Of a stretch of DNA of 64,000 nt, positions 24,363-56,621 are shown one piece after another. Position 1 is the first letter of the stretch. Every line of letters starts with the position of its first letter. Below the pieces are notes generated by a model. It was not told the origin of the DNA and did not search any database. It worked only from the letters and a program-made list of their open reading frames with translations. Origin of the DNA: Cyanobacteriota bacterium (GTDB taxonomy: Bacteria > Cyanobacteriota > Cyanobacteriia > CACIAM-69d); the NCBI GenBank assembly GCA_022402445.1, contig JAKRSF010000013.1, forward strand, positions 1 through 64,000, given 5' to 3'. The position numbers and the translations under genes are program-made.

Positions 24363-24380
24363 GGGCAATTTGGAGGGATG

Positions 24381-24487
24381 GGGTTGGGGGTTGAACGGGT
24401 TTGGGGCGATCGGTGGGGGCAGGGTTGGGGTTGAACGGGTTTGGGGTGATCGGTGGGGGCAGGGTTGGGAAACCCAACCCCTACGGG
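24381..24487. repeat. Dispersed palindromic repeat with tandem units (copy 1)
   Basis: Two tandem units of 41 and 40 bp (24381-24421, 24422-24461) built around TTGAACGGGTTTGGGG and GATCGGTGGGGGCA. They are followed by an 8-bp inverted repeat GGGTTGGG-AAA-CCCAACCC (24462-24480) and then CTACGGG. The same pieces in reverse order form the element at 33087-33262. It lies just upstream of the hydrolase start. Confidence 0.85.
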
Positions 24488-26271: not shown

Positions 26272-28503
26272 GTGGCCATCATCCAAGGGGATAACCAAGC
26301 CAACCTGCTCACCGGCACCAACGCCACCGACACCCTCCTCGGCGCAGGGGGCGACGACACCCTACAGGGGCTCGGCAGCAACGACACCCTCCGGGGCGGC
26401 CAGGGCAACGATCAACTCCTCGGCGGCCAGGGCAGCGACCAGCTCGAAGGGGACCTCGGCGACGATCTGATGCGGGGCGGCCTCGGCGAAGACCTCATGT
26501 TTGGCCGCGCCGGGAACGACACCCTCTTCGGGGATCAGGGCAACGACACCCTCTTTGGCGGCCAGGGCACCGACCTGCTCCTCGGGGGCTTTGGTGAAGA
26601 TCTCGTCTTCGGCGATCGCGGCAACGACACCCTCTACGGCGGCCGCGACAACGACACCCTCATCGGCAACGAAGAAGACGACCTCCTCTTTGGCGACGAC
26701 GGCAACGACCAACTCTTCGGCAACGAAGGCAACGACAGCCTCAACGGCGGCACCGGCGAAGACGTGCTCTTTGGCGGCAGCGGCAACGACCTAGCGTTCG
26801 GCAACGAAGGGGACGACATCCTCAGCGGCGACGACGGCAACGACGCCCTCTTCGGCGGCCAGGGCAACGACCTCGGCTTCGGCGGTGCTGGCAACGACCA
26901 ATTCTTCGGCGGCCTCGGCAACGACACCTTCTTTGGCAGCGACGGCGATGACCTGATCTACGGCAACCAGGGGGCCGATCGCCTCGAAGGGGAAGCGGGC
27001 AACGATCGCCTCTTCGGGGGCCAGGACAACGACAGCCTCTTCGGCGGCGAAGGCAACGACAGCCTCAGCGGCGACGCGGGCAACGATGCCATCTTCGGCG
27101 GCCAGAACGAAGACACCCTCAACGGCGGCGACGGCAACGACCAGCTCTACGGCGACGCGGGCAACGACGTCCTCTACGGCAACGCGGGCAACGACATCCT
27201 CGAAGGGGGCGACGGGGACGATCTAATCTTCGGCGGGCGGGGCGATGACTTCATCGTCGGCGGCCTCGGCAACGACACCCTCTTTGGCAACCTGGGCAAC
27301 GACACCCTCAACGGCGGCGAAGGGGGCGACATCTTCGTCCTGCCCAGCCAGATCGACGGCAATGTCACCACCATCGTCGATTACAACCCCGCCCTCGACG
27401 CGATCGGCGTGGAACCGGACTTTAATGTGGGCGAACTGCGCTTCCAGCAGGGGGTCGGCATCAACGGCGGCGATCTGCTGGTGTATGTCTCCCTCGGGGA
27501 AGCCACCGTGAATAACGTGGTGGGCAACACCACCCCCCCTGCCACGAATACGAATACCAACACCGGCACCAATCCCCTCGCCCCCCTGCCCACCGCCGCA
27601 GATTCCCCCGCCCAGCCCACGGAAACCCTGCGGCTGATTGCCATCTTCAAGGGCACCCTGGCGAGCAATATCCGCCCCGACTTTTTCATCACCGTGGAAC
27701 CGAGTACGATCGCCCCTCCTCCCGGCGGCGGCACGGGCACGGGCGGCACCCAGGTGGGCACCAGCGGCGACGACAACCTCACGGGCACCACGGGCAATGA
27801 CACGATCGCGGGGCTCGATGGCAATGATCGCCTCAGCGGCGGCGAAGGCTCCGATCAACTCTTCGGTGGACCGGGGGATGACAACCTCCTGGGTGAAGCG
27901 GGCAACGATACCCTCTCCGGCGGCGGCGGCAGCGATCGCCTTGAAGGGGGCGACGGGGACGATGTGCTCCTCGGGGCCGGGGTTGACGTGCCCAACCTGC
28001 AAAATGTGGGCGACGGGTCCAGCGCCACGCCGGGGGCAGAAACGACGGCGGACGCTAACGACACGCTCATTGGCGGCGAGGGCAACGACAGCATCGTCGG
28101 CGGCGCTGGGGACGACAGCCTCGTGGCGGGCAATGGGGACGATACGCTCATCGGCGGCGCGGGCAACGACACCCTGGTGGCGACGGGGGGCACGAATGTC
28201 CTCACGGGTGATGATGGGGTCGATACCTTTGTCCTGGCGTCGCCCAACGCGATCCTGGAGGTGACGGATTACCAAAGCGGGACCGATGCGCTGATCATCA
28301 GTGCCAATGGGTTCAATTTGCAGCGGGCGTTCCAGCTCTCGGCCGCTGGGGTGGATCCGCAGCCCGGTGAGTTCCAGGCCCTGAGTTCGGGGGGCGATAC
28401 GGCCCTGCGGTTCAATGATGGTGGTCAGATCAAGATTGTGGCCCTGTTCCGGGGGCGCAATGAACTGCCGTCGGGGATCACCCTCTCGAACTTTGAAGCC
28501 TAG
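26272..28503 (+). CDS. RTX (hemolysin-type) calcium-binding repeat protein
   Basis: A 743-residue protein starting with GTG, preceded by AGAGG at good spacing. Residues 10-355 are almost entirely nine-residue GGxGxDxLx repeats (GGQGNDQLL, GNAGNDILE), which wind into a calcium-binding beta-roll. A second repeat block lies at about 500-645. Two non-repeat domains (about 360-490 and 645-743, with DVFVL-like strand patterns) end the blocks. There is no Sec signal, as expected for type I secretion with a C-terminal signal; no type I transporter is in the window. No catalytic domain is seen, so it may be a cell-surface or secreted structural protein. It ends 4 bp inside the convergent RluA-like gene. 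Confidence 0.9.
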   Translation: MAIIQGDNQANLLTGTNATDTLLGAGGDDTLQGLGSNDTLRGGQGNDQLLGGQGSDQLEGDLGDDLMRGGLGEDLMFGRAGNDTLFGDQGNDTLFGGQGTDLLLGGFGEDLVFGDRGNDTLYGGRDNDTLIGNEEDDLLFGDDGNDQLFGNEGNDSLNGGTGEDVLFGGSGNDLAFGNEGDDILSGDDGNDALFGGQGNDLGFGGAGNDQFFGGLGNDTFFGSDGDDLIYGNQGADRLEGEAGNDRLFGGQDNDSLFGGEGNDSLSGDAGNDAIFGGQNEDTLNGGDGNDQLYGDAGNDVLYGNAGNDILEGGDGDDLIFGGRGDDFIVGGLGNDTLFGNLGNDTLNGGEGGDIFVLPSQIDGNVTTIVDYNPALDAIGVEPDFNVGELRFQQGVGINGGDLLVYVSLGEATVNNVVGNTTPPATNTNTNTGTNPLAPLPTAADSPAQPTETLRLIAIFKGTLASNIRPDFFITVEPSTIAPPPGGGTGTGGTQVGTSGDDNLTGTTGNDTIAGLDGNDRLSGGEGSDQLFGGPGDDNLLGEAGNDTLSGGGGSDRLEGGDGDDVLLGAGVDVPNLQNVGDGSSATPGAETTADANDTLIGGEGNDSIVGGAGDDSLVAGNGDDTLIGGAGNDTLVATGGTNVLTGDDGVDTFVLASPNAILEVTDYQSGTDALIISANGFNLQRAFQLSAAGVDPQPGEFQALSSGGDTALRFNDGGQIKIVALFRGRNELPSGITLSNFEA

Positions 28504-31930: not shown

Positions 31931-33064
31931 ATGACTCCGGCCCCCGTTTCCTCCCGCCCGTCTGATCCCGCTGCCCCGGCGGCTGCCCCGTCCCCGAATC
32001 GCCCGTCCCTGGCGGTGCCGCCGCTGGTGGGGGCGTCGATCGCGGAGTTGACGGATTGGGTGAAGGAGCAGGGGCAACCGGCCTATCGCGGCAAGCAGCT
32101 CCATCAATGGATCTATCAGCAGGGGGCGCGATCGCTCGAAGACATTTCGGTGTTTCCAAAGGCGTGGCGGCAGACGATGGCGGCGGTGCCCGTGGGGCGA
32201 TCGCAGATCCATTACCGGGCCGTGGCGCGGGACAAAACCGTTAAATATTTGCTGAAGCTGGCGGACGGCCAAATTATTGAAACCGTCGGCATTCCCACCG
32301 CGAAGCGACTGACAGTTTGCGTATCGTCCCAGGTGGGCTGCCCCATGGCCTGCGATTTTTGCGCCACGGGCAAGGGCGGTTTCGTGCGCAATCTCTCCCG
32401 CGCGGAGATCGTCGATCAGGTGCTGACGGTGCAGGAGGAGTTTGGGCGGCGGGTGTCGAATGTGGTGTTCATGGGCATGGGGGAGCCGCTCCTCAACCTC
32501 GATGCGGTGGTGGGGGCCGTGCGATCGCTCAATGAAGATGTGGGCATCGGCCAGCGCAATTTAACCATTTCCACGGTGGGGGTGCCCGGGCGCATCCGAG
32601 CATTGGCGGCCCACCAGCTTCAGGTGACCTTGGCCGTGAGTTTGCACGCTTCCAACCAATCCCTGCGGGAGACGACGATCCCCAGCGCGAAGCACTATCC
32701 CCTGACGGCGTTGCTGGACGATTGCCGTGCCTATGTGCAGGAAACGGGGCGGCGGGTGACGTTTGAATATACGCTCCTGGCCCAGGTGAACGATACGGAA
32801 ACCCACGCGGCGGAGTTGGCGGGTCTACTGCGGGGGTTTCAAAGCCATGTCAATTTGATCCCCTATAACCCCATTAGTGAGGTGGACTACCGCCGTCCGT
32901 CGGGCGATCGCGCCCAGGATTTTCTAGAACAGTTGGAGGAGCTGGGCATTGCCGCCAGTATCCGCCAAACCCGTGGCCTGGACGCGGATGCGGCCTGCGG
33001 TCAGTTGCGGGCGTCGCACCTGGAGGTGGATTCAGATTCGTCGAATTTGGCGGCGGTGGATTAG
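31931..33064 (+). CDS. rlmN: Dual-specificity 23S rRNA/tRNA adenine-C2 methyltransferase RlmN
   Basis: A 377-residue radical SAM enzyme that methylates A2503 of 23S rRNA and A37 of some tRNAs. The radical SAM cluster motif CPMACDFC is intact ([16 protein letters not shown]). The N-terminal domain has [13 protein letters not shown], and GMGEPLLN and the catalytic C-terminal Cys region (DADAACGQL) are present. The first 35 residues are Pro/Ala/Ser-rich and may be dispensable or indicate a later start, but no better start was seen. Confidence 0.96.
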
Positions 33065-33086
33065 GGCCTATCATCAATTCCGCCAT

Positions 33087-33262
33087 CGTAGGGGTTGGGT
33101 CTCCCAACCCTCGCCCCACCGATCACCCCAAGCCCGTTCAACCCTCGCCCCACCGATCACCCCAAGCCCGTTCAACCCTCGCCCGACCAATCGCCCCCAA
33201 TCCGTTCAACCTGGGGGCGATCAGGGATCGTGGGGGCTGGGCGGGAAAACCCCGCCCCTACG
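33087..33262. mobile_element. MITE-like element with inverted CGTAGGGG ends and tandem units (copy 2)
   Basis: A 176-bp non-coding element bounded by CGTAGGGG (33087-33094) and its complement CCCCTACG (33255-33262). Each end is part of a hairpin: GGGTTGGG-TCT-CCCAACCC at the left, and GGGCGGG-AAAA-CCCCGCCC (one extra C) at the right. Between them lie two identical 34-bp units (33111-33144, 33145-33178) and a diverged third (33179-33211), each ending in CCGTTCAACC. No target duplication is obvious. It shares the unit and left end with the copy at 24381-24487. Confidence 0.75.
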
Positions 33263-33291
33263 AATGGTTGATGGGAGCGAGATGGTGCGTC

Positions 33292-35331
33292 CTAGCGATT
33301 AATGGCACTGGCGGCCATCTGGGCGATCGCGCGATCGTCCGCCTTGGGCAAGTGATAATACTTACCCCCGGCGGCGGTCACCAGTTCCTGGGCGAAGCCC
33401 GTCCGCACGAACCGACTTTGGGTATCGATCAGGAGCATCTGCATCCCCGAGGCGCGGATCTTGCCGGCGATTTCCAGGAGTTCCTCCTTGATGTCCGGCG
33501 TTTCATCGGGGTCCAGGGGCTGGCCGAGCGATCGCGCCAGGGGCACATTGCCGCGTCCATCGGTGATCGCCACCAGCACCACCTGACCGATATCGCCGGA
33601 CTGCATGGCATTGAGACCCACCCGCACCGCCTGGGTGAGGCCATGGGCCAGGGGCGAACCGCCACCGCAGGGCATGGTTTCCAGACGGCGACGGGCGGCG
33701 GCGATCGATCGCGTGGGGGGCAACAGCACCTCCGCCTGCTCCCCCCGGAAGGGAATCAGGGCCACCTCATCGCGATTTTGATATGCCTCCGTCAGCAGCC
33801 GCAGGACCGCCCCCTTGGCCGACTGCATCCGGTTCAGGGCCATGGATCCCGACGCATCCACAATGAAAACGATCAGCGCCCCCGCCTTCCGGGCCAGCCG
33901 CTTCGATCGCACATCGGACCCTTCCACAAAAACCCGGCGATCGGCACCGGGGCCACCCTTGGCGATCGCCCGCGCCCGCCGACCTTTTTGGTAGGGAGCC
34001 GACGCCCGCAGGGTCGCATCCACCGCAATCCGCCGCACGGGGCCACGGGGGATCATGGGCCGCACATACCGCCCGCGATCGTCGGAGAACACAACACTCC
34101 GCGCCCCGGACTTGCCCTGGCGTTTCGCCGCCGTCTGGGCAAAGGTCATCACATCCGGATCCAGGATCGCCCCCTCGGGATCAAAAATAAATTCCTCCGG
34201 CAGGGCGGGGGGCTCGTCCGGCTGCTCCTGATCCTCGTCGGGGCTGTCGTCCTGGTTGTCTTCCGTTTGATCGTCCTGGTCGCGATCGGACTCGTCCCGG
34301 TTATCCGGCGGCGGCGGCGGCGGTGGCGGCTGCTGATCCGGCGGCGTTTCCACCACCGTGGCCCTTGGGACAATCACCAACTGCACGGCGGTTTTTAGAT
34401 CCCCCGCATTCACCGTCGTGCGGCCATCGAGGGCGGCGCAGGCTTTGGCAACCCGCACGGCGAACAGTTCCGCCCGGTGGCCCTGGACGCGCCCGCGCAC
34501 GGCTTCTTTGACTAAATATTCGATTTGCTCGCGGCTGATGGTCACGTCCTTGAGCCATTCCCGCGCCAGGAGCAGTTGGGTTTTGAGGCTGTCGATGTCC
34601 TCCTCGTACTGGTCCAAAAAGGCGGCGGGATCGCGGGCGTAATTGGTGGCTTGGGTGACCACTTCCACCCGCTGATCGATCCCCAGGGCTCCGTCGGCGG
34701 AGAGGGTGATGGCGATGCGATCGAGCAAATGCTCCCGTAGCGGGCCTTCTTCGGGGTTGTAGGTGGCGATCAGCAGCGCTTGGCAGGGGTGGGAAAAGCT
34801 GATGCCCTCCCGTTCGATTTGGTTGCGCCCTTCGCCGATCGCGCCGAGCAGCAGGTTGGCGGTTTGGTCATCGAGGAGGTTGAGTTCGTCCACATAGAGG
34901 ACGCCGCGATTGGCTTCGGCTAGCAGGCCCGGTTGAAAGATCGTTTCGCCCCGCTTGACCGACAGGCCCACGTCCACGGATCCGATGAGGCGATCTTCGG
35001 TGGTGCCGAGGGGGATTTGGACGAAGGGGGCGGGGATCACTTGCGTGGGGGGCTCGTCGGTGTCGCCGATCGCGTGGGCGAGGCCGTCTTCCCAGGTGGT
35101 GCGATCGCGCGGATCGCAGTTACTTACGGAGCCCTGGACAATTTCAATGGGGGGCAAGAGCGCATGGATTGCCCGCGCCATGACCGATTTGGCCGTGCCC
35201 CGCCGCCCCGCGATCGCGACGCCCCCCAGGCCCGGATCCACCGCCGCCAACAGCAGCGCCAGTTTGATGGCTTCCTGGCCGATGACGGCGCTCAGGGGAA
35301 AGGCGGTGGGGGTGCGGGCGATCGTAGCCAT
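33292..35331 (-). CDS. chlD: Magnesium chelatase subunit D
   Basis: ChlD (679 residues) joins ChlI and ChlH to insert Mg2+ into protoporphyrin IX, the first committed chlorophyll step. An AAA+ module occupies about 1-320 ([33 protein letters not shown]). A Pro run plus a strongly acidic Asp/Glu/Gln linker follows (about 330-395). A C-terminal von Willebrand A domain has the MIDAS motif [13 protein letters not shown]. The standard domain order and length indicate a functional subunit. chlI and chlH are not in the window. Confidence 0.98.
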
Positions 35332-56553: not shown

Positions 56554-56621
56554 GTGGGGGCGGGGTTTCCCCGCTCAGCCCGCGATCGCGATCGCGGGTA
56601 TTCCCAAGGTTGAACGGGTTT
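56554..56621. repeat. Diverged fragment of the dispersed palindromic repeat (copy 3)
   Basis: A palindrome GGGGCGGGGTTTCCCCGC near 56557-56574 and the core GGTTGAACGGGTTT at 56608-56621 match pieces of the elements at 24381 and 33087. It sits between two convergent genes and may serve as a terminator. Confidence 0.6.

Follow-up and report, generated by a model that had tools for sequence, protein, structure and literature searches.

A polarised GTAG-REP heterodimer in a cyanobacterium of the Limnothrix family, probably spread as the core of an IS5/IS427-type MITE

A 176-bp element at positions 33087-33262 was analysed within a 64,000-nucleotide stretch of cyanobacterial DNA (contig JAKRSF010000013.1, assembly GCA_022402445.1, positions 1 to 64,000), which is called the window here. 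The element lay between two convergent genes, rlmN (31931..33064, plus strand; TIGR00048, 451 bits) and chlD, which encodes magnesium chelatase subunit D (33292..35331, minus strand; TIGR02031, 773 bits). The inverted CGTAGGGG ends, the terminal hairpins and the 34-bp units described in an earlier note on this DNA were all seen. The left hairpin (33088..33110, plus strand) matched exactly the L-type GTAG-tagged REP pattern, GTAG-GGGTTGGG-TCT-CCCAACCC, in which GGGTTGGG and CCCAACCC formed a perfect 8-bp stem. The right hairpin (33239..33261, minus strand) was an exact match to the R-type pattern and read GTAG-GGGCGGG-GTTTT-CCCGCCC. Three tandem 34-bp units (33105-33138, 33139-33172 and 33173-33206, plus strand), two of them identical and one 82% alike, lay between CAACC direct repeats, and the inter-REP spacer (33111..33238, plus strand) was expanded compared with the 60 bp of canonical 106-bp copies.

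Outside the left tag, an IS5/IS427-type terminal repeat, TAGGGCCTATCATCAATTCCGCCATC, was found at 33062..33087 (plus strand). This left outer arm opened at a TA, exactly 26 bp outside GTAG, and had 1 mismatch to TAGGGNNTGTCRTCA; the stop codon of rlmN was the TAG that opens it. On the other side, a possible degenerate right arm (33262..33294, plus strand) closed at a TA, and the chlD stop (TAG, minus strand) occupied 33292-33294. With 5 of 15 positions mismatched to the terminal repeat, the match was not significant, and the right arm is therefore not established. Two partial elements in the window agreed with those noted earlier. The reversed piece noted at 24381-24487 was a half element on the minus strand (24378..24484) with an exact L hairpin (24462-24484) and two unequal units; its R end was absent, and no outer arm was found there. 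The diverged piece at 56554..56621 (plus strand) was a degenerate half element with an R-type REP-like hairpin (3 mismatches) and the TTGAACGGGTTT core. Elsewhere in the window, positions 26272-28503 encoded a 743-aa protein of calcium-binding glycine-rich repeats; its RTX-like NCBIfam repeat matches, among those listed (8), were all below the curated cut-offs.

The window's genome (G000; 4.08 Mb, 13 contigs, 99.93% complete, Limnothrix family) contained at least 47 paired copies of the family and many half copies. A BLAST-type search of this genome with the element, in which 40 of the 185 candidates were scored, gave at least 61 matches. Pattern searches that allowed up to 3 mismatches found 83 L-type and 100 R-type hairpins, with two sites in both lists, and the reversed hairpin patterns that served as control gave 0 and 0 matches. 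Moreover, there were 38 spans from CGTAGGGG to CCCCTACG with at most 300 bases between them, some nested, against 3 in the control. The dispersed, non-autonomous family with common ends that had been suggested was thereby supported, and neither a scarcity of copies nor unshared ends was seen across the genome. The consensus R hairpin was GTAG-GGGCGGGG-TTT-CCCCGCCC, alternatively with the loop GTTTT. Head-out pairs within 500 bp comprised 45 L-R, 1 R-R and 0 L-L pairs, where three of the 45 L-R pairs use one common R end. The two hairpins thus differ and are ordered, and the view of the element as one simple palindrome did not hold. Likewise, the CGTAGGGG ends, which had been taken for MITE terminal repeats, were the GTAG tags of REP hairpins. 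At its core lies a polarised heterodimer of GTAG REPs, which are described in the literature as inverted dimers of a GC-rich, short-looped stem with GTAG immediately in front (PMC3733652, PMC6006769). Hairpins of this class are the substrates of an HUH tyrosine transposase, RAYT. An autonomous element between CGTAGGGG ends was also sought and rejected: four spans of 1.5-5 kb held no transposase and apparent host genes, the latter call being a reading of ORF translations.

The copies analysed (n = 45) were drawn from 46 distinct L-R units in the genome, that is, the 45 pairs minus 2 nested ones with the common R end (C13:352480 and 352563) plus 3 hand-added units with diverged ends. One unit (C7:633202) was dropped as too close to the edge of its stretch, and at least one further unit (C7:394067) was left uncounted. 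The canonical copy had a spacer of about 60 bp and an R hairpin inverse to L, with GTAG outside. The commonest GTAG-to-CTAC length was 106 bp (9 of 45 copies), and the range of 86-246 bp between the tags agreed with the earlier proposal that the number of tandem units varies; 29 of the 45 copies exceeded 112 bp. CAACC stood at positions 18 and 52 of the canonical copy and at 18, 52, 86 and 120 of the window copy. According to this spacing, each 34-bp unit repeats the segment that two short direct repeats enclose, and on sequence grounds the units were probably made by slippage between the CAACC repeats. A different array was observed at C13:352480-352784 (L036), where an 83-bp tandem unit carried the whole L hairpin with its left flank, and three L hairpins stood ahead of one R end.

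Flank profiles of the copies showed that conservation reached past the GTAG tags. The left outer arm was TAGGGCGTGTCATCAATTCCGTCACC, and the right arm, read inward, began TAGGGAATGTCGTCAAAATGG. The combined outer motif, itself derived from such flanks, had 39 matches in the genome and 1 in the control. At up to 3 mismatches, an arm was present on at least one side of 24 of the 45 own copies (left 17, right 11, both 4), against a shuffled-flank expectation of 2%; in the remaining 21 copies no outer arm was recognised at this threshold. The CGTAGGGG ends are therefore not the outer limits that they had been thought to be, at least in the 24 copies conserved further out, and the true MITE-type ends, which are IS5/IS427-like, had been missed. 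Across the own copies, dimer similarity was modestly correlated with arm preservation (Spearman -0.38, p 0.01).

The outer layer was better preserved in three sibling genomes. Among 19 relative dimers, at least one arm was found in 17, the left in 16, the right in 15 and both in 14 (up to 3 mismatches); these loci were found through well-preserved dimers and hence are not a random sample. In 14 of the 19, the distance from GTAG out to the start of the left arm was exactly 26 bp, and the right arm lay at 59-60 bp in 13 (up to 3 mismatches). Thirteen of the 18 units with both arms and both tags in the examined loci measured 191-194 bp. These units had TA at both ends, TA being part of the search motif. 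Several composites sat in a palindromic CAAGGGGCT-TA..TA-AGCCCCTTG site, from which a TA duplication is inferred by way of the flanks, and the uninterrupted CAAGGGGCT/AGCCCCTTG palindrome occurred in REP-less elements. A dimer-free 70-bp MITE with both outer arms was found at C4:17395-17464. A REP-less MITE about 146 bp long (L209, L213, L217, L229) was also abundant in the Limnothrix-type genomes, and its central hairpin, CAAGGGGCTTAAGCCCCTTG, is the hot spot of the composite and of the IS5 gene.

The earlier suggestion of a transposase encoded elsewhere was met by candidates only, namely one IS5 gene and one RAYT-like gene. The IS5-family transposase gene (IS5_3, NF033580; C10:100454-101319) had outer-arm ends and was inserted at the TA of CAAGGGGCT-TA-AGCCCCTTG, the hot spot of the composites. 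It was read in two overlapping frames, so its activity is uncertain. A second IS5_3 copy (C5) had only one partial end match nearby. The insertion sequence ISPssp5 (IS5/IS427) has the inverted repeat GGGCGTGTCATCAATTA and the direct repeat TA (PMC6514802), and an end-string search of the literature returned just the ISPssp5 ends and plant microsatellite papers.

The RAYT-like gene (C9:211263-211847) encoded 194 aa with NHVH, WQ and YIITNP motifs. Its NCBIfam NF047646 match (C9:211317-211790) was split around an in-gene REP and scored 61 bits, below the curated cut-off of 80. Pfam PF01797 (Y1_Tnp) had no match anywhere in the genome, a blank that alone would have misled, since NF047646 did find the gene. 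One R-type REP was in frame within the coding sequence and a second was just upstream; these REPs, flanking and entering the gene, formed the sole R-R pair of the genome. Two sibling-genome orthologues (85% and 82%) had the same upstream and in-gene R-type REPs, and in-frame tandem units accompanied the in-gene REP in two of the three orthologues. The next four homologues (49-51% identity) had the R hairpin upstream in 4 of 4 and inside in 3 of 4. In the best 30 of 87 places over 388 genomes of the class, orthologues included, a loose scan run without a control found hairpins with a GTAG or similar tag, which lay within the gene in 12 places and beside it in 21. No L-type REP was found beside the RAYT gene of the window's genome; such a hairpin did lie upstream of a RAYT homologue from a different family (L141), and in a Poribacteria MAG the gene immediately downstream of an exact L-R dimer was RAYT-like.

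In-frame REP-derived stretches were observed in the RAYT genes L033:264-848 (minus), L081:994-1551, L082:845-1441 and L092:606-1163 (minus). The peptides read off the translations were GRGDPAPT and, in the Poribacteria gene, VGARSPRP, and in-frame tandem units occurred in the RAYT genes of G000, G004 and Poribacteria. A second REP system (GTAGGGGCGTACCGCCGTACGCCC and similar) flanked another RAYT-like gene (L083:754-1590 and L084:394-1662, in G002 and G005), beside a gene that we take, from its translation, to be an isopropylmalate dehydratase.

Exact L-R dimers were found in 4 of 388 genomes of the class, all of one family (G000, G002, G004 and G005). The RAYT orthologue was present in G000, G002 and G004; at 80% or more it was absent from G005 and from the 384 dimer-less genomes of the class. 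G005 also had no IS5_3 match at E 1e-10. The third genus of the family (G001 and G003) lacked dimers and matched neither NF047646 nor the MITE query; it did have IS5_3 genes, and three loci of G003 held REP-less units with IS5-type outer ends. Single hairpins alone occurred in G012, G013 and G024 among 39 genomes of the class compared. The exact dimer search of named genomes, which may omit records of the window's own genome, returned 15 stretches, of which 12 were cyanobacterial and 3 belonged to Poribacteria MAGs. The Poribacteria L-R pairs (L092:1195-1285, L101:4437-4554 and L104:4245-4346; stretch GC 40-52%) may reflect convergence, transfer or a binning error.

The 45 copies lay in 30 convergent, 14 tandem and 0 divergent gaps, with 1 ORF overlap, as counted with a crude codon-usage caller and without a genome-wide baseline. 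No copy was wholly inside a predicted ORF, and of the 90 element sides, 13 had an adjacent predicted ORF that stopped on the TAG of the GTAG tag. The copies sit downstream of genes, mostly convergent ones, and sometimes give a TAG stop as a by-product. Between genera, identity was 95% for the L hairpin, 88% for the R hairpin and 64% for the spacer (9 own 106-bp copies compared with 16 relative copies, or with 7 for the spacer); since hairpins were the basis on which the copies had been found and chosen, the hairpin values are inflated. The element folded strongly as DNA (z -3.7). In an RNAalifold analysis of 36 copies of 100-117 bp (17 own and 19 relative, other lengths excluded), only the two hairpins paired, and paired cells made up 96.5% compared with 96.4% after shuffling, which indicates no covariation. 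Within 32900-33500 of the window, Rfam had 0 matches at E up to 1, and the terminator scan found a single site, inside rlmN, and none in the element.

According to these results, the polarised GTAG-REP heterodimer has probably spread within a non-autonomous IS5/IS427-type MITE, of which it forms the core; a probability of about 0.7 was assigned to this reading. The nested arms, the TA and the hot spot of the well-preserved copies are best read as a REP dimer within an IS5-type MITE, an account based on static sequence comparison, not on observed movement. The near-constant size of the composite and its TA target argue for movement as a MITE, and the REP-marked RAYT gene together with the conserved hairpins argues for a core that RAYT uses, or once used, as a substrate. 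Several findings count against this account. No IS5_3 gene with outer-arm ends was found at the loci examined in G002 and G004 (some at contig ends), where the composites are best preserved, and G005 has dimers with neither a RAYT orthologue nor an IS5_3 match. Conversely, G001 and G003 carry IS5_3 genes and no dimers. To these are added the non-significant right arm of the window copy, the partial end match of the C5 copy, the two frames of the IS5 gene, the weak profile matches of RAYT and the absence of an L-type REP beside it. Moreover, with 21 of 45 own copies arm-less and only 4 carrying both arms, a large share of the copies may be REP dimers that lie in no MITE. Copies lacking arms could be either ageing composites whose arms have decayed or dimers that RAYT has moved, and the weak correlation of dimer similarity with arm preservation favours neither reading.

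The strongest competing explanation is a pure REPIN/BIME system, in which RAYT-moved dimers often landed in older IS5-type MITEs that offered safe sites, without any contribution of the MITE layer to their spread. It is favoured by the arm-less copies, by two dimers bounded on both sides by predicted coding sequences (C9:618968 and C11:526134, both gaps -4), by the R-R dimer around the RAYT gene, and by the Poribacteria dimer beside its RAYT-like gene, which had no outer arm in the flanks shown. The dimer-free 70-bp MITE points the same way, as does the failure to find an IS5_3 gene with outer-arm ends at the loci examined in G002 and G004. However, the left arm at exactly 26 bp and the right arm at 59-60 bp weigh against it, because independent insertions would not reach one position in a MITE each time; so do the 191-194-bp composites at TA, several of them in the hot spot. 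This explanation is accordingly judged unlikely, though it deserves more weight than those that follow.

A plain IS5-type MITE, with the hairpins as structural or regulatory cargo (a bidirectional terminator or an mRNA stabiliser) and with GTAG tags and a link to RAYT that are coincidental, would fit the preponderance of convergent gaps, for which the crude caller gave no baseline, and the strong folding as DNA. In contrast, all three RAYT orthologues have the R hairpin both upstream and within the gene, and the closest homologues carry it nearby or internally; coincidence does not explain such repetition. Furthermore, the element contained no terminator-like site by the scan, and nothing beyond near-invariant hairpins covaried. 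The cargo explanation is hence very improbable. As for ordinary intergenic tandem repeats or an RNA gene, the 34-bp units are what such a reading would account for; the end-defined dispersed copies with 0 control matches, the lack of an Rfam match and the lack of covariation leave it a negligible chance.

If the heterodimer is indeed the core of an IS5-type MITE, an IS5-type transposase would move the 191-194-bp composite in trans into TA. RAYT would act, or would once have acted, on the REP hairpins, which could account both for hairpin conservation and for copies without MITE arms. The 34-bp units would come from replication slippage between CAACC repeats. A more specific version of this scheme, a two-engine element in which a unit of about 190 bp bears working signals for two unrelated transposases, is put forward tentatively and seems rather doubtful. 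The DDE enzyme of the IS5 type would use the outer arms and disperse whole units to TA sites, and the HUH enzyme RAYT would copy or maintain the core through its REP hairpins. The REPs would thus ride the MITE, and the RAYT gene, with the same REP in frame, would stay at one locus.

The dimer resembles known GTAG REP, REPIN and BIME systems in several respects. GTAG stands 0-2 nt 5' of a GC-rich short-loop stem-loop, as in the published definition of GTAG REPs (PMC6006769), with a stem of 7-8 bp and a loop of 3-5 nt. The REPs are inverse with GTAG outside, the canonical 60-bp spacer falls within 20-100 bp (expanded copies, the window's included, have longer spacers), the copies lie downstream of genes, and a tyrosine transposase gene (TnpA-REP) is flanked by the same REP. 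The strict L-R polarity, the putative slippage units and the enclosure in a MITE of a DDE transposase are different here. REP heterodimers are known in other genera, and the cyanobacterial families GTAG-12, GTAG-15 and GTAG-16 have been named in the same source (PMC3733652); the present REPs may or may not be identical with one of them. TnpA-REP subclass 2.4, a cyanobacteria-rich group, is described by NH[IFV]H, WQ and YIxNNP motifs and by REPs inside the transposase gene (PMC6006769). The present RAYT is similar, by motifs alone, in its NHVH/NHIH and WQ and in its in-gene REP. Its YI-TNP is one residue off the published YIxNNP (PMC6006769), and its in-gene REP carries in-frame tandem units in two of three orthologues.

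With MITEs of the IS5 family and IS427 group (ISPssp5), the composite has in common the terminal repeat GGGYGTGTCATCAATT, the TA duplication and an IS5_3 gene with such ends; the interior here is a REP dimer, not remnant transposase sequence. In Pseudomonas putida and P. fluorescens, degenerate GTAG-1 REPs adjoin unrelated stem-loops in double inverted repeats (PMC3733652), which are likewise REPs fused to another repeat and dispersed. Those repeats flank RAYT genes and, in the available portion of that account, are not described as IS5 or DDE ends with TA. A limited search of open-licence literature, as far as the texts were available, found no REP dimer inside a DDE-type MITE. Each layer is of a known kind, and the nested combination appears to be undescribed within the limits of that search.

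RAYTs are usually single-copy and, to our knowledge, have rarely been seen to mobilise REPs, and for this reason the way in which REPs and REPINs multiply is, as far as we know, still unclear. REP dimers as the core of an IS5-type MITE would provide an alternative route of spread, by hitch-hiking on another transposase. The family would also offer a natural comparison among genomes with dimers and the RAYT orthologue (G000, G002 and G004), a genome with dimers alone (G005) and genomes with neither (G001 and G003).
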